From Flavipsychrobacter sp. (lineage in GTDB: Bacteria > Bacteroidota > Bacteroidia > Chitinophagales > Chitinophagaceae): a DNA stretch of 64,000 nucleotides. The stretch lies in NCBI GenBank assembly GCA_021155965.1, contig JAJNBJ010000001.1:248001-312000 (forward strand). The letters are read 5' to 3'. Positions 17,622 through 43,977 of this stretch are shown one piece after another. A model generated the notes under the pieces. It did not search any database. It saw only the letters and a list, made by a program, of their open reading frames with translations, and had not been told where the DNA came from. The position numbers were made by a program, and so were the translations under genes. Position 1 is the stretch's first letter. Each line of letters begins with the position of its first letter.

Positions 17622-17787
17622 ACCCGACTGTCGAATAACTCACTCATCCTGCCATCTTTTCATCCTATAAATCGTAGTTCAGACAATTTGCGGTCTGGCA
17701 CACTTTTTGCTGCATTATTTATTGCGCCGCAAATGGCTAAAACCTGCTGCCAGTGCGCATTTTGGCAGTTCTTTGTTTACGGAAAAT

Positions 17788-17869
17788 TATACCCAAAATA
17801 TACCCTTTTTATACCCTCTTGTATTGAAGATTATACCCAAATTATACCCTTTTATACCCCTTTATACCT
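17788..17869 (+). repeat. Helically phased TATACCC array
   Basis: Heptamers TATACCC start at 17788, 17799, 17810, 17832, 17843 and 17853, with a final TATACCT at 17863. The 11-base step continues through 17821, where the motif is degenerate (GTATTGA). Spacing changes to 10 in the last two steps. Bases between motifs are A/T-rich. Confidence 0.75.
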
Positions 17870-23662: not shown

Positions 23663-24800
23663 TTTGCTTACTCCCAAATACCGCTTTCATCATTACATCA
23701 GTAAAAGTATCCCAGCTATACTTCTGTTTTTCAGCAAGTATATGCGCATGCAGGTTGGGTATGGAATTAGGTTCATAGAACTTCAATATCGCATCAGCAA
23801 TAGAAGCCGGGTTGGGCTCTGCCACAAAGCCTACCTTTCCATGCGGCACTACTTCGGCAAGGCCGCCTACATTGGTCACTACCATGGGCTTTTCGAAATG
23901 AAAGGCTATTTGTGTAATGCCGCTTTGGGTAGCATGTTTGTAAGGTTGTACAATAAGGTCTGCCGCGGAAAAGTAGTAACGTACTTCGCTGTTGGGAATA
24001 AAATCCGTTTTCAGATGCACTACCTTTTGCAACTGGTGTTTTTCTAATATTGCATTGTTATTTGCTTCTACAGCTTTATCGTAGTACTCTCCCGCAGCTA
24101 TCAGTTCTATGCCTGCCTGCCTGATGCGTTCATCAGCCATGGCTTCCAGCAGCAGGTCTAATCCTTTATACTCGCGTATAAACCCAAAGAACAGCAGGTA
24201 TCTTTTATTAGGATCAAGACTTAATTTTTTGCAGGCTTCCTGCTTGCTTACAGGTTCGTTATAACTATCATAAATAGGGTGGGGCGTAAAATAAGACGGC
24301 TTATTGGTGAATGTCCTCACATCCTTCAACACGTCCTTGCTCATGGTCACAAAAGCATCAATAGGCTTAATGAAGTAGTTGGTAAATTGCTTATCACCCG
24401 GCCGTTTCTCGTGGGGTATGATGTTGTCCACTATGCACAACACCTTAGTATGCTTATTCTTTTTACCTTTCCTTAGAATTGTGCCAAACGCAGGTCCCAT
24501 AAAAGGCAGCCAGTATTTTACAATAATGAGGTCGAATTTTTCTTTGTTCACCTGGCTGCCAATACTCATCCAATTGAGTGGGTTTACAGAGTTAACAACC
24601 GTACGTATGGTCAATCCCTTTGGGGCGGGTTCATCAGTAAATTGTGTTTTGCCTGGAAACAGGAACGATGGGTACTGAAGGCTGAAAGAATAGATAACTA
24701 CTTCATGCCCCTGCTGCTGCAACTGGTAAGCAAGCCGCTCATTAAAAGCAGCAAGCCCGCCCCTTAACGGATGTGCAGAACCAAGGATGGCTATCTTCAT
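23652..24800 (-). CDS. Family 4-type glycosyltransferase
   Basis: A 382-residue GT-B fold enzyme. N-terminal signs are the SAHPLRGGLAAFNERLA glycine-rich loop. The C-terminal domain shows FFGFIREYKGLDLLLEA, TDFIPNSEVRYYFSAADLIVQPYKHATQSG and the GGLAEVV nucleotide-sugar-binding helix. It should transfer a sugar to a lipid-linked glycan; donor and acceptor are unknown. Last gene of the heptose-type operon, overlapping the nucleotidyltransferase by four bases. Its position suggests it uses the activated sugar made by that operon. Confidence 0.87.
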   Translation of the reverse strand: MKIAILGSAHPLRGGLAAFNERLAYQLQQQGHEVVIYSFSLQYPSFLFPGKTQFTDEPAPKGLTIRTVVNSVNPLNWMSIGSQVNKEKFDLIIVKYWLPFMGPAFGTILRKGKKNKHTKVLCIVDNIIPHEKRPGDKQFTNYFIKPIDAFVTMSKDVLKDVRTFTNKPSYFTPHPIYDSYNEPVSKQEACKKLSLDPNKRYLLFFGFIREYKGLDLLLEAMADERIRQAGIELIAAGEYYDKAVEANNNAILEKHQLQKVVHLKTDFIPNSEVRYYFSAADLIVQPYKHATQSGITQIAFHFEKPMVVTNVGGLAEVVPHGKVGFVAEPNPASIADAILKFYEPNSIPNLHAHILAEKQKYSWDTFTDVMMKAVFGSKQISR

Positions 24801-25495
24801 TTAAAAAGTGTTTTAAAGTCCTTTTGGGCAAGGTCGTAATCAGTAGGTATGCCAATATCTATGAAATAGCGATCGCTTTCATACCCAAAGAACTTCTTTT
24901 CCTTTACAAATTTCTCGAGGTAGTCTTTTTCAAAGGAAAACTTATCAGGCAGCTTCCTGGCAAGAAATTTTTCCCGGTTGATGAAATAAACGCCGCCATT
25001 GATCATTCCTTCGTCGCGATATTGTTTTTCCTCAAATGAGGTGATGACGCCGGATGCATCAGCATTCACTATACCATACCGGTCAAACTCTTTCATCTTT
25101 TTCAGCGCCAGCGTTGTTTCTGCATTTTTGCTGCGGTGAAAAGCCATTTGTTTTGCCAGGTCCACCTTGAACATCGTATCACCGTTCACAATAGCAACAT
25201 CATCCGTCTCAGCTACCTCCATCGATGCTAATATACCTCCGCCGGTGCCTAAAGGTTCTTCCTCTATCACGCAATCAACTTCAAACAAAGTATCCTGTTC
25301 TTCTACCCAGTCGGTAATTACCCTGTGTTTATAACCGAGCGAAAGAATTACACGTGTGCATCTTTGCTGTGCCAGGTAATCAAAAAGATAGGAAAGAAAA
25401 GGTTGGTCATTTACCGGTGCCATGCACTTGGGATATGCACCTATAACGCCCTGTAATCTTGTACCAAGCCCACCGGCAAGTATTATTGCTTCCAT
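24797..25495 (-). CDS. hddC: Sugar-phosphate nucleotidyltransferase, HddC-like
   Basis: A 232-residue enzyme that joins an NTP and a sugar 1-phosphate. The N-terminus has the GGLGTRL pyrophosphorylase loop (AIILAGGLGTRLQGV), PKCMAPVNDQPFL, and the metal site NGDTMF. Family and length match D-glycero-D-manno-heptose-1-phosphate guanylyltransferase. With the GHMP kinase of the same operon this suggests GDP-heptose synthesis. The partners GmhA and GmhB are not in the window. The symbol is inferred from the neighbour. An octamer array ends two bases before the ATG. Confidence 0.72.
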   Translation of the reverse strand: MEAIILAGGLGTRLQGVIGAYPKCMAPVNDQPFLSYLFDYLAQQRCTRVILSLGYKHRVITDWVEEQDTLFEVDCVIEEEPLGTGGGILASMEVAETDDVAIVNGDTMFKVDLAKQMAFHRSKNAETTLALKKMKEFDRYGIVNADASGVITSFEEKQYRDEGMINGGVYFINREKFLARKLPDKFSFEKDYLEKFVKEKKFFGYESDRYFIDIGIPTDYDLAQKDFKTLFK

Positions 25496-25497
25496 TT

Positions 25498-25529
25498 GTT
25501 AACAGGTTAAATAGTTAATTAGTTAAAAG
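25498..25529 (-). repeat. Four tandem octamers directly before the hddC-like start codon
   Basis: Plus-strand units GTTAACAG, GTTAAATA, GTTAATTA and GTTAAAAG, eight bases each. In the sense of the gene they read NNNTTAAC; the last one ends two bases before ATG. Confidence 0.8.
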
Positions 25530-25540
25530 GGCAATGGGGA

Positions 25541-25957
25541 TTAATTATTTTTAGAATCGATCATCTTTTTAAGCCAGGCTATATATCCGTTCAGAAGTTT
25601 TTCTAATTCTAAAGCTTGTTGTTTATATTCGTTCAAAGTACTTTCCGAAATATAGTTGCAATCAAATGCGTTAATGCAATCGTTTATTGTCTCATACAGA
25701 GAACCTCGTGCCTGAATACAGAAATGCAACTGATCTTTATAAGTATATCTTCCATAACCTTCAGAAATATTACTGCCAATTGAGCGGCTTGCTCTTATTA
25801 ATTGGTCTTCAAGACGGTATTTTTCGACTGCCGGAAATGATTTTACAAGCTGATAAATAGAATTTTTATATCGTCTTGCACCTTGCCAGACTTCAAGATC
25901 GGTAAATGACTTATATACTTTATCATTTTCCATAAGCAACGATTTATTAATACTCAC
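25541..25957 (-). CDS. S23-type four-helix-bundle protein
   Basis: A 138-residue protein of the 23S-rRNA intervening-sequence (IVP) family: FTDLEVWQGARRYKNSIYQLVKSFP, then EDQLIRASRSIGSNISEGYGRYT, then a QARGSLYETINDCINA helix. Homologues occur in rRNA intervening sequences and, often in Bacteroidota, within polysaccharide gene clusters. The function is not known. An inner ATG at 25933 is also possible. It breaks up an operon whose other genes are contiguous in function, and is flanked by octamer arrays facing each other. Confidence 0.9.
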   Translation of the reverse strand: MSINKSLLMENDKVYKSFTDLEVWQGARRYKNSIYQLVKSFPAVEKYRLEDQLIRASRSIGSNISEGYGRYTYKDQLHFCIQARGSLYETINDCINAFDCNYISESTLNEYKQQALELEKLLNGYIAWLKKMIDSKNN

Positions 25958-25976
25958 CTTTTTTACTTATTTGCTT

Positions 25977-26023
25977 TATTAACCTTTACCCTATTACCCT
26001 TTTACCCTATTAACCATTTAACT
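25977..26023 (-). repeat. Degenerate octamer array at the hddA-like stop codon
   Basis: Plus-strand units TATTAACC, TTTACCC (7), TATTACCC, TTTTACCC, TATTAACC and ATTTAACT. In gene sense they begin at the TAG stop codon and read TTAAATGG, TTAATAGG, GTAAAAGG and so on. The orientation is opposite to the array at 25498-25529. Confidence 0.75.
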
Positions 26024-27044
26024 AGATACTCCACGATACAAGCCCGTGATTAGTGAATTGGTAGGCGCTGAAACTTCCACCGAATGATGCAAGAGTTTTT
26101 TTTACTTGATGTCTCGTATTTGCAGGGCAGTAAAACATCATAAACCCACCACCGCCTGCGCCCGATATTTTGCCCCCGGTTGCGCCCGCTTTCAATGCAG
26201 CTTCATAAATATCATCCATAGCTGAGTTGGAAATGCCCTTCGCCATTTGTTTTTTAAAACGGAAACCAAAATCCAGTATCCTGCCAATGTCGTGTATATT
26301 ACCCTTAAGCAATGCCTCTTTCATCATTACAGACTGTTCCTTCAGGTTGTGCATCGCATCTATCGACTCTTTGTTTTTTTCTTTCACATTCTGGCTTTGC
26401 GCTTCAATTATGGTAGATGACAAGCGGCTGGTTGCTGTAAAGTAGAGCAGGAGGTTATTCTCCAATTCCCACAGGTAACGTTGCTTTATACGGAGTGGGT
26501 TCACAATTACTTTGTCATCGCTGTAAAACTCCATAAAATTCACTCCGCCGAAGGTTGCTGCATACTGGTCCTGCTTGCCGCCTGCCATTGCAAGTTCCAC
26601 GCGTTCAATATCATATGCCATATGGGCAATGTCATATTCGCCGAGGGGCAGTTTCAGCCACTCAGCAAAAACACCAATTATTGCTACCATTAACGTTGAT
26701 GAACTGCCAAGTCCGGACCCCGCCGGGGCATCGACCAATGTAGACAGTTTAAATCCTGAAGCTACAGGCCCATACTTCTTCACGACATGGTTATAGGCAC
26801 CTTTCGCCAGATCCAATGTGCCATCAATAGGCAACTGGTCCATATTGTCATAACTTGTTGTTTCATTGCGGTCTATCGCTTCAATAATTATTTTCGGCTC
26901 ATCCAGCGGCTCTATCGTTGCATACGCATAAAGTGATATAGTGGCGTTGAGGATGGCTCCCCCATACAGGTCACAATACGGGCTTACGTCTGTTCCGCCC
27001 CCTGCCAGGCCTATTCTTAATGGTGCTTTGCTGCGGTATATCAT
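26022..27044 (-). CDS. hddA: GHMP kinase, HddA-like heptose-7-phosphate kinase
   Basis: A 340-residue GHMP-family kinase. The first motif is APLRIGLAGGGTDV, the ATP loop is DAPAGSGLGSSSTLMVA, and the third motif is KISGAGGGGFMMF. These match D-glycero-D-manno-heptose-7-phosphate 1-kinase, which makes the alpha-1,7-bisphosphate. Fucose or other sugar kinases of the same family cannot be fully excluded. First gene of the minus-strand operon; its leader carries AT-rich direct repeats around TTATTAATTTA (about 27056-27074). Confidence 0.78.
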   Translation of the reverse strand: MIYRSKAPLRIGLAGGGTDVSPYCDLYGGAILNATISLYAYATIEPLDEPKIIIEAIDRNETTSYDNMDQLPIDGTLDLAKGAYNHVVKKYGPVASGFKLSTLVDAPAGSGLGSSSTLMVAIIGVFAEWLKLPLGEYDIAHMAYDIERVELAMAGGKQDQYAATFGGVNFMEFYSDDKVIVNPLRIKQRYLWELENNLLLYFTATSRLSSTIIEAQSQNVKEKNKESIDAMHNLKEQSVMMKEALLKGNIHDIGRILDFGFRFKKQMAKGISNSAMDDIYEAALKAGATGGKISGAGGGGFMMFYCPANTRHQVKKTLASFGGSFSAYQFTNHGLVSWSI

Positions 27045-42676: not shown

Positions 42677-43846
42677 ATGAAGCGACTGGCGATATTGGGG
42701 TCAACGGGGTCTATAGGGACACAGGCGTTGGAGGTGGTGGCTGCCCATCCTGACCTGTTTGAGGTGGAGGTATTGACTGCGCACCGTAATTCGGCACTGC
42801 TGATAGAGCAGGCAAAAAAGTTTAAGCCCAATGCGGTGGTGGTAACAGATGAGAGCAAGTATAAAGAGGTGAAAGATGCCCTGCTGATGCTGCCCATAAA
42901 AGTGTTCAGCGGGAACCAAAGCCTGAACGAGGTGGTGCAGTGGGAGGCAATAGATACCGTGCTTGGCGCCATTTTGGGCTTTGCGGGCCTGCACAGCATA
43001 TTGGCAGCCATTGATGCCGGCAAGCGCATAGCCCTTGCCAATAAAGAAACACTGGTGGTGGCAGGCGAACTGGTGATGCAGCGCGCCAAAGAAAAAGGTG
43101 TGGACGTAATACCGGTGGACAGCGAGCACAGCGCCATCTTCCAGTGCCTGGTGGGCGAGAACCCCGCCAGTGTGGAGAAAATGATACTCACCGCCAGCGG
43201 CGGGCCCTTCCTGGGGCGCAAACCCAACTACCTGGTGAACGTAAAAGCCAGTCATGCCCTGCAACACCCGAACTGGAGCATGGGCAACAAGATAACGATA
43301 GACAGCAGCACACTTATGAACAAAGGGCTGGAGATGATAGAGGCAAAGTGGCTATTCGGGCTGAAGAATGAGCAGATAGAGGTGGTGATACATCCGCAGT
43401 CCATCATACATTCTATGGTGCAGTTCAACGATGGCAGCGTAAAAGCCCAGATGAGCCTGCCTGACATGAAGCTGCCCATACAATATGCCATCGCTTTCCC
43501 GCACAGGGTAGCGAACACCTACAAAAGGCTGGATTTTAAAGATTTCCCAAAACTGACATTTGAAGCGCCCGATTATAAAACTTTCCGTAATCTTGCCATC
43601 GCTAAGGATGCGCTGGTGAAGGGCGGCAATGCGCCGTGTGTGATGAATGCTGCGAACGAAATGGTGGTGAACGCATTTTTGCAGAACAAGGTGGGCTTTT
43701 TGGAGATGAGCGATATGATTGAAAAGACGATGGAGCAGGTGGCTTTTATAGACCACCCAACCCTGCAGGACTACCAGGAAAGCGACCTTGAAGCACGTGG
43801 ATACGCAACGGAGTTTATTAAGAAGAGCCAGTTGTCTATTTATTAG
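42677..43846 (+). CDS. dxr: 1-deoxy-D-xylulose 5-phosphate reductoisomerase
   Basis: Dxr makes 2-C-methylerythritol 4-phosphate in the MEP isoprenoid pathway. The 389-residue product has the NADPH motif LGSTGSIGTQALEV at the N-terminus, ANKETLVVAGE, the metal and catalytic block VDSEHSAIFQCLVGE, TASGGPFLGR, MGNKITIDSSTLMNKGLE and the C-terminal HPSM-type domain. Length is normal. The stop TAG starts an octamer array, and rseP follows. Confidence 0.97.
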   Translation: MKRLAILGSTGSIGTQALEVVAAHPDLFEVEVLTAHRNSALLIEQAKKFKPNAVVVTDESKYKEVKDALLMLPIKVFSGNQSLNEVVQWEAIDTVLGAILGFAGLHSILAAIDAGKRIALANKETLVVAGELVMQRAKEKGVDVIPVDSEHSAIFQCLVGENPASVEKMILTASGGPFLGRKPNYLVNVKASHALQHPNWSMGNKITIDSSTLMNKGLEMIEAKWLFGLKNEQIEVVIHPQSIIHSMVQFNDGSVKAQMSLPDMKLPIQYAIAFPHRVANTYKRLDFKDFPKLTFEAPDYKTFRNLAIAKDALVKGGNAPCVMNAANEMVVNAFLQNKVGFLEMSDMIEKTMEQVAFIDHPTLQDYQESDLEARGYATEFIKKSQLSIY

Positions 43847-43885
43847 GTTAATAGGTTAAATAGTCAAGTGGTTAAAAGGTATTTA
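43846..43885 (+). repeat. Octamer array beginning at the dxr stop codon
   Basis: Units GGTTAATA, GGTTAAAT, AGTCAAGT, GGTTAAAA and GGTATTTA from 43846. The first G is the last base of the TAG stop. Orientation is opposite to the array at 43931-43977. Confidence 0.8.
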
Positions 43886-43930: not shown

Positions 43931-43977
43931 AACCTAATTAACCTAGTACCTTATTAACTTTTTAACTAATTAAGTAA
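43931..43977 (+). repeat. Octamer array directly before the rseP start codon
   Basis: Units end TTAAC(42), CTAGTACC, TTATTAAC, TTTTTAAC, TAATTAAG, then TAA and ATG. The last unit ends three bases before the start. Facing the array at 43846-43885, it can form a long imperfect stem with a loop of about 45 bases. Confidence 0.8.

Follow-up and report, generated by a model that had tools for sequence, protein, structure and literature searches.

Described systems with S23 genes or short repeats

Several described systems share single elements with the locus reported here. The Avd protein of diversity-generating retroelements is S23-like, and MITE-type elements have terminal inverted repeats, dispersed copies and gene-less forms. 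The closest counterpart is found in ribosomal RNA. The 23S rRNA intervening sequence (IVS) of Coxiella burnetii carries an S23 open reading frame (ORF) within a 28-bp terminal inverted-repeat stem, and tandem heptamers lie immediately 5' of the ORF (PMC4990558). In that source, this ORF is regarded as reductively evolving and probably unexpressed, S23 has "no known function", and the S23 protein of Xanthomonas campestris is reported as a pentamer (PMC4990558). Degenerate seven-nucleotide repeats are described in the P6b stem of the Nostoc tRNA-Leu(UAA) group I intron, where one of two alternative motif classes has repeatedly replaced the other and the length varies by repeat units (PMC4476775). 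Heptamer arrays of the TAACTGA type are reported from Beggiatoaceae, cyanobacteria and some Bacteroidetes. They are intergenic and mostly near start codons, close relatives have shorter, array-less spacers, and a role in gene rearrangement was suggested by the authors (PMC4679880).

The present locus has an S23 gene between two facing repeat arrays in a protein-coding operon. It is probably an IVS-like S23 cassette of a widespread class that resides in the stop-start gaps of operons.

The S23 gene and its arrays in the hdd operon

The window, i.e., the whole 64,000-nt stretch of DNA that was analysed (G000:C14:248001-312000), belongs to a genome of 4.25 Mb. On its minus strand, within an operon for sugar synthesis, an hddA-like gene (26022..27044) is followed by an array, the S23 gene (25541..25933), a second array, an hddC-like gene (24797..25495) and a glycosyltransferase gene. 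The hddA-like gene encodes a GHMP kinase (NF049969, E 6.9e-121; PF00288) and the hddC-like gene a nucleotidyltransferase (NF049965, E 3.5e-68; PF00483). Both are named "-like" because their best NCBIfam matches, HddA with 404 bits (cut-off 600) and HddC with 230 bits (cut-off 300), score below the cut-offs. The ORF between them (25541-25957, minus strand) matches PF05635 with E 4.9e-33 (114 bits, cut-off 33.8) and TIGR02436 with 106 bits (cut-off 24). Its protein matches the solved structure 2gsc (XCC0516) with E 1.8e-9, and a profile from eight S23 proteins of the family matches 2gsc at 7.4e-35 and 2rld at 7e-15. Based on these profile matches, the gene is assigned to the S23 / 23S rRNA IVP (four-helix-bundle) protein family (PF05635, TIGR02436). 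An ATG at 25933, conserved among congeners by eye, gives a protein of 130 aa; the GTG at 25957 is a less likely start. The locus is not inside 23S rRNA but between two protein genes. Neither a transposase nor an integrase was found between the arms, and S23 was the only gene found there.

The upstream (5') arm (25977..26022, minus strand) contains about six degenerate octamers, which read GTTAAATG GTTAATAG GGTAAAAG GGTAATAG GGTAAAG GTTAA on the transcript strand. Three units are of the GTTAA type and three of the GGTAA type, and the first lies inside the TAG of hddA (26022). The downstream (3') arm (25498..25526, minus strand) reads TTAACTAA TTAACTAT TTAACCTG TTAAC, with four TTAAC units, and ends 2 nt short of the hddC ATG. 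The original prediction had placed an S23 gene between hddA-like and hddC-like genes, enclosed by facing arrays that begin at the TAG of the former and end two bases ahead of the ATG of the latter. The family matches and the array coordinates bear this out. A 34-nt inverted repeat (25506..25539 with its partner 25989..26022) is 82% complementary, with its arms 449 nt apart, and the two ends are joined by 38 bp in the predicted RNA fold. By both measures, the locus has complementary ends that would form a terminal stem, as in a bacterial IVS.

The octamer pair pattern GTTAANNNGTTAA occurs nine times in the window against 0.13 expected, and (GTTAANNN)3 has 20 matches in the genome against one for the reversed pattern. 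The octamer is only one flavour, the unit being mostly 7 nt elsewhere. A second, gene-less pair of facing arrays, which had been claimed between dxr and rseP, is real as well (upstream arm 43840..43880 and downstream arm 43939..43977, plus strand). Degenerate 10/11-nt TTATACCCCT repeats were observed at 17784-17868 of the window. TATACCC stretches were also seen ahead of the arrays in L010 and L023 of the same genome; these two and L020 are single TTAACC octamer arrays with no S23 gene within the stretch shown. A promoter element of the TAnnTTTG-like type and a start codon lie shortly downstream of the three arrays.

Enclosure of S23 genes in other genomes

The genome itself contains five PF05635 matches. 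It had been asked whether the same octamers border other S23 genes. In this genome they do not, as GTTAANNN units in a row are found only at the window copy and none of the four other loci has two of them. Three of the four are nevertheless enclosed by facing arrays of other units, namely AAAGTAG, AATTTGAA and GATTTGT. The fourth is unenclosed; it adjoins a tRNA-Leu gene, and its match contains a stop codon.

In the family, S23 genes were found in 114 of 147 genomes (E <= 1e-8), with up to 16 copies. A set of 143 S23 loci was compiled from the four other loci of the genome, 30 loci of the genus (kept from 56 listed places) and 109 of the family, the last being the top of an E-value list and not a random sample. 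All but one are distinct (142), and 138 have both 200-nt flanks. To obtain the inverted-repeat score, the upstream flank was locally aligned to the reverse-complemented downstream flank. Scores of at least 16, 18, 20 and 25 were reached by 112, 88, 73 and 36 of the 138 loci, respectively. The corresponding rates were 10.0, 4.9, 2.6 and 0.5% with swapped partners and 7.8, 2.7, 1.0 and 0.14% after dinucleotide shuffling. As controls, 48 genes of the window gave 3, 1, 1 and 0 loci at the same thresholds, and 29 RsfS loci (30 fetched, one lost to a contig end) gave 2, 0, 0 and 0. The 26 family loci with scores below 16 include a tRNA-Leu-linked group. Indeed, L005 and L079-L082 form a separate S23 group, and all five are downstream of tRNA-Leu with no facing array (scores 9-12). 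AACAGTG-like repeats were noticed on the upstream side of L005, L079 and L080.

Similar results were obtained across phyla with S23 loci from named genomes (the best 80 of 584), which come from Bacteroidota, Clostridia, Planctomycetota, Proteobacteria, Cyanobacteria, candidate phyla and one archaeal bin. Among the 77 loci with flanks, 61, 53, 46 and 21 reached the four thresholds, compared to 8.7, 3.6, 1.8 and 0.2% in the null. Two of the best 80 repeat family loci: L228, from a Bacteroidetes MAG, shares its arms with L074 of the genus, and L195, from Chitinophagaceae UBA4407, shares its own with L103 of the family. An Rfam scan for rRNA context at 20 of the best 80 loci gave no match.

A strict scan that required a 7/8-mer array in both arms found enclosure at 4 of the 5 loci of the genome, 94 of the 138 family loci and 52 of the 77 others. 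In 320 kb of the genome, taken from arbitrary stretches without S23, the same scan found one facing pair. This pair is gene-less, and its type is that of the arm at C22:228560, an S23 copy; block shuffles gave none. Facing pairs are therefore rare, yet not restricted to S23. Other S23 genes are rarely bordered by the window octamer and mostly by facing arrays of some 7- or 8-mer. As a box of this build, with other repeat units, surrounds most of the S23 relatives examined, in many phyla, it looks like an insertable, IVS-related unit.

S23 genes were also matched on 35 plasmid records, mostly cyanobacterial; cyanobacteria are a group known for heptamer repeats. No match was found among 50,697 phage records with one family S23 protein as the query. 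In one Calothrix strain, an S23 pair on two plasmids was considered as a case of cassette movement. The flanking genes carry like annotations on either side (integrase, hypothetical genes), which makes the pair uninformative on movement of the cassette alone.

Structure and position of the arms

The arms are built on short periods. Among 109 compact upstream arms (score of at least 18, length of at most 70 nt), a period of 7 was the best in 75 and one of 8 in 27, and nothing comparable was found in the S23 coding sequence. In the pooled set of 213 loci, arrays were detected in 131 upstream flanks, 119 downstream flanks and none of the coding stretches, with median lengths of 4.9 units upstream and 4.6 downstream. 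Stops in all frames are present in 59 of the 109 upstream arms, against 28.6 in shuffles, and in 25 downstream arms, against 9.8. Supplying stop codons in every frame was considered as a purpose of the arms; with an excess on the downstream side too, it is no more than a possibility.

Operon neighbours were assigned by a mechanical rule based on the open frames, and 113 of the 138 S23 loci were co-directional with both. In the pooled set, arms with a score of at least 14 are located between stop and start at 141 of 176 co-directional loci. The median distance is 1 nt from the upstream stop to the arm (quartiles -3, 8) and 8 nt from the arm to the downstream ATG (quartiles 3, 16). Without the insert, the residual gap would be 12 nt, compared to about 478 nt in line.

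The arms could also be viewed as the leader and trailer of the S23 gene itself, serving, e.g., expression or termination, with no cassette behaviour. The strand polarity agrees with this view. On the S23 strand, the upstream flank is G-rich in 85.5% and the downstream flank C-rich in 82.6% of the 138 loci, and on each side the polarity is kept in 8 of 10 copies that are antisense to both neighbours. However, arms persist without the gene at L322 and L328 (see the rpoB-rpoC junction below) and occur elsewhere without S23, and the leader-trailer explanation is considered very improbable.

As for the origin of the complementarity, own arms pair more than swapped ones in predicted RNA folds at 34 of 45 sampled loci. 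G.U is not in excess over A.C among the arm mismatches (244 v 248; 47 v 63 and 12 v 30 in stricter sets), so selection for an RNA stem on the S23 strand is unsupported. For this reason, the complementarity is more likely kept by a process at the DNA level, or by an agent blind to wobble pairs, than by RNA-stem selection on this strand. The S23 protein was also considered as a strongly basic nucleic-acid binder, which its charge alone does not support, the core pI being near neutral (median 6.8).

Presence and absence of S23 at two operon junctions

The hddA gene was found in 32 of 35 genomes of the genus (own genome included), and 30 loci were kept. At 16 of them, hddC is next, in the same direction and within reach, and these junctions were compared. 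In five, including that of the window, an intact S23 gene lies between facing arms (scores 20-49), and L045 has both arms with an S23 fragment (score 20). The ten junctions without S23 score at most 13 and have no facing arms. Seven of them have gaps of 9 to 59 nt and are armless by eye. L042 (40 nt) has TTAAC stretches reminiscent of a downstream arm left behind, a short GTTAA stretch was seen in L048 (212 nt), and L036 (794 nt) contains other sequence. L038, an additional locus, is broken by a contig end within the apparent start of an S23 gene. The genus thus offers the junction both with and without S23, as had been anticipated, and the S23-less forms lack facing arrays. A single fused array had been predicted for the latter. 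L322 at rpoB-rpoC, with both arms and no gene, comes close to it.

Filled and empty genomes are intermixed in the hddA tree. The supported branches force at least three changes for the filled state, and the window genome groups with two empty congeners (95/87). S23 at the hdd junction has been repeatedly lost or gained and is not a fixed feature. The S23 genes of this site have pN/pS of 0.14-0.24 over ten pairs, the two estimable dN/dS values being 0.05 and 0.06, and are under purifying selection. They differ at most synonymous sites (pS 0.70-0.85), so no recent movement is caught at this site.

Another S23 copy of the genome is located between rpoB and rpoC. The downstream gene was identified as rpoC by Pfam, and the upstream gene is taken to be rpoB, judged from its C-terminal sequence. 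In the genus, 27 loci were obtained, with both genes visible in 26. All 12 loci with S23 have facing arms (scores 16-28), and 12 of the 14 loci without S23 have none. The two exceptions are L322, which keeps both arms in a 97-nt gap (score 16), and L328, where arms surround 464 nt with no S23 frame (score 17). Apparent single-arm scars were seen by eye at L309 and L327. Ten S23-less loci are armless, among them L316, which scores 22 through an unrelated palindrome. A different palindrome, of type GTAGAGACGCAATGCATTGCGTCTCTAC or similar, was observed in the S23-less spacers of L306, L308, L315 and L316. The S23 genes at rpoB-rpoC have pN/pS of 0.14-0.35. By eye, no target-site duplication was recognised when filled and empty spacers of the hdd and rpoB-rpoC junctions were compared.

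These two junctions bear on another explanation, a possible but rather unlikely one, namely that facing arrays are a property of the spacer. They would grow in place at both edges, slippage and template switching keeping the arms complementary until coding sequences are reached, and S23 would merely be tolerated between them. At hddA-hddC and rpoB-rpoC, however, junctions with S23 have facing arms and most of those without it do not.

Association of the arms with the S23 lineage

At the same junction, own arms score 21.4 against 15.1 for swapped ones (103 loci in 16 groups), with two groups of three showing no difference; sites were grouped by the downstream gene only. For the association with the S23 lineage, the 139 of 213 loci with a score of at least 18 were used. 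S23 pairs of at least 65% identity at different junctions have an arm similarity of 15.4 (37 pairs, 38 loci), and same-junction pairs one of 16.4. S23 pairs below 45% identity have values of about 6.8 across junctions and 6.7-7.5 within a junction, and where both members of a low-identity pair come from one genome, the value is 5.5. Permuted arms gave 7.1, with a maximum of 9.95, and none of 1000 permutations reached 15.4. Fifteen of the 37 pairs belong to one fabD-adjacent group and may reflect local rearrangement. The effect is smaller without this group, with 10.9 against 6.9 for permuted arms (22 pairs; maximum 9.2, 0/1000). It is also weaker at an identity of at least 60%, i.e., 11.0 v 7.1 with the fabD-adjacent group and 9.3 v 6.9 without it. 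The three pairs of at least 60% identity at different sites of one genome have similarities of 18, 7 and 8, the arms being similar in one only.

The S23 tree gives examples of such sharing. GTTAA arms occur in one weakly supported group (81/80) that covers hdd and CoA-transferase junctions, the latter being L061 and, in another genus, L166. Furthermore, GGAATT arms are found in a clade across rpe and paa junctions. Judged from these comparisons, S23 genes of one lineage tend to keep their arm type at different sites. This fits the expectation for a cassette border and tells against growth in place as a spacer property. The proposal that the octamer borders an insertable cassette is supported as far as the link between arm type and S23 lineage is concerned; it does not hold for GTTAANNN as a general border of S23 genes.

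Facing arrays without S23 and with other cargo

Evidence for arrays as a spacer property comes from junctions without S23. The window S23 was sought at 30 dxr-rseP loci, with no match in any. Among 28 dxr-rseP junctions, 26 have a length of 60 nt or more, and a score of at least 15 was found for 10 of the 26, with several unit types; in L280, it comes from a different palindrome. The rpsA-PCD neighbours encode an S1-domain protein and Pterin_4a by Pfam. Both genes are present at 11 of 30 loci, and 10 of the 11 score at least 15 with no S23. Here, the arms enclose an apparent native terminator, and the unit type varies between congeners; at L435, the arms are 52 and 61 nt from the edges. Own arms also beat swapped ones without S23 (22.4 v 15.4 and 19.7 v 11.2 in these two sets). 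Since arrays bound these S23-less spacers, arms can form without S23, and spacer edges must also be subject to some process that produces paired arrays in its absence. Together with the lack of a G.U preference, these data favour the spacer property. The rarity of facing pairs in the strict scan outside S23 loci (one in 320 kb), compared to their frequency around S23 genes of the genome and the family, speaks against it. A simple transposon or a simple RNA stem is likewise disfavoured, by the S23-less facing arrays around native spacers and by the missing G.U excess.

Single octamer arrays without an adjacent S23 gene are also present in the genome. Given these and the gene-less facing pairs, arrays are not confined to S23 genes and are not simply the ends of a transposon. 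Another explanation, considered unlikely, is a MITE-like family of repeats whose mobile part is the arms and whose cargo can be exchanged, S23 being one passenger among others. Its main support is the arm of C22:228560, which has 30 matches in the genome (up to 3 mismatches) against none for the reversed pattern. Arms of this type occur as single arms, as gene-less facing pairs and around other cargo (L381:1493-2262 and L385:1493-2475, both on C22 of the genome). The first cargo is a FEKKY-domain gene, present in 1 of 35 genomes of the genus (own only), and the second consists of a 139-aa gene and an antitoxin that is RelN-like (below cut-off). The FEKKY gene lies inside the rpsA-PCD arms of the genome, which are among the ten pairs above. 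Congener G031 shares this arm type at rpsA-PCD and lacks the FEKKY gene, so this gene may have entered a pre-existing box. This possible later entry, S23 as the most regular cargo in the material examined and the lack of a recognised target-site duplication all count against a MITE-like family. The repeat unit, moreover, differs between most S23 cassettes.

Proposed mechanism and significance

The most economical account is an IVS-like cassette made of S23 and its own complementary heptad or octad arms. In such a cassette, the S23 gene is held between complementary degenerate 7-/8-mer arrays that extend from a stop codon to the next start codon. It would reach new junctions now and then, and would mostly be inherited and then lost. 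The arms may pair to form a long stem, either in the mRNA or in single-stranded DNA, which would fold away the insert of about 480 nt and leave about 12 nt between stop and start. Alternatively, they may serve a hairpin process in DNA. With the insert folded away, the operon would tolerate the cassette as ribosomes tolerate an IVS. The S23 protein, kept by selection, would probably act on the hairpin or on host RNA.

A bolder version, for which the chances are seen as slim, is an undescribed cross-phylum process that writes complementary heptad or octad border arrays, with S23 as its dedicated partner. The arrays would be set flush with stop and start codons and stay complementary despite the turnover of units. 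The S23 pentamer could engage about five units per hairpin arm, comparable to ring proteins on repeated RNA or DNA motifs and in line with the medians of 4.9 and 4.6, though this is as doubtful as the process itself. Equally speculative is that S23 might move the cassette or shield the operon from it.

The recurrent boxed architecture offers a handle on S23 function, as excision, the stem, binding of the arms and mobility become testable. It would unite rRNA IVSs, the heptamer repeats found in cyanobacteria and Bacteroidota, and intergenic hairpins without genes as one subject. It is also a warning that S23-type genes inside operons need not share the surrounding pathway.

Comparison with known systems

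Among titles and abstract openings, which made up most of the literature seen, no report on S23 genes boxed by repeat arrays in protein operons was found. As in the 23S rRNA IVS, an S23-family ORF lies inside a long inverted-repeat stem, and heptamers are present in Coxiella too. The host differs, being a protein-coding operon gap here and not helix 45 of 23S rRNA. Moreover, both arms are tandem arrays here, and the S23 gene is under purifying selection.

The TAACTGA arrays share the intergenic position close to start codons and the array-less relatives. In contrast to the facing arms, they are given as direct repeats, with one inverted set, and the terms "S23" and "four helix" are absent from the available text (PMC4679880). 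With MITEs, the cassettes may have in common the terminal inverted repeats, the dispersed copies and the gene-less forms. They differ in that there is no fixed terminal sequence and no recognised target duplication, and in that the arms are degenerate arrays with a changing unit.

Like the P6b stem of Nostoc, the cassette arms are built on degenerate heptads. The Nostoc stem, however, is intronic, and the available part of the source mentions neither a gene between the arms nor S23 (PMC4476775). By analogy, the cassette would work like a 23S rRNA IVS and be built like the Nostoc heptad stem; as it lies outside rRNA and outside introns, it is a member of neither.
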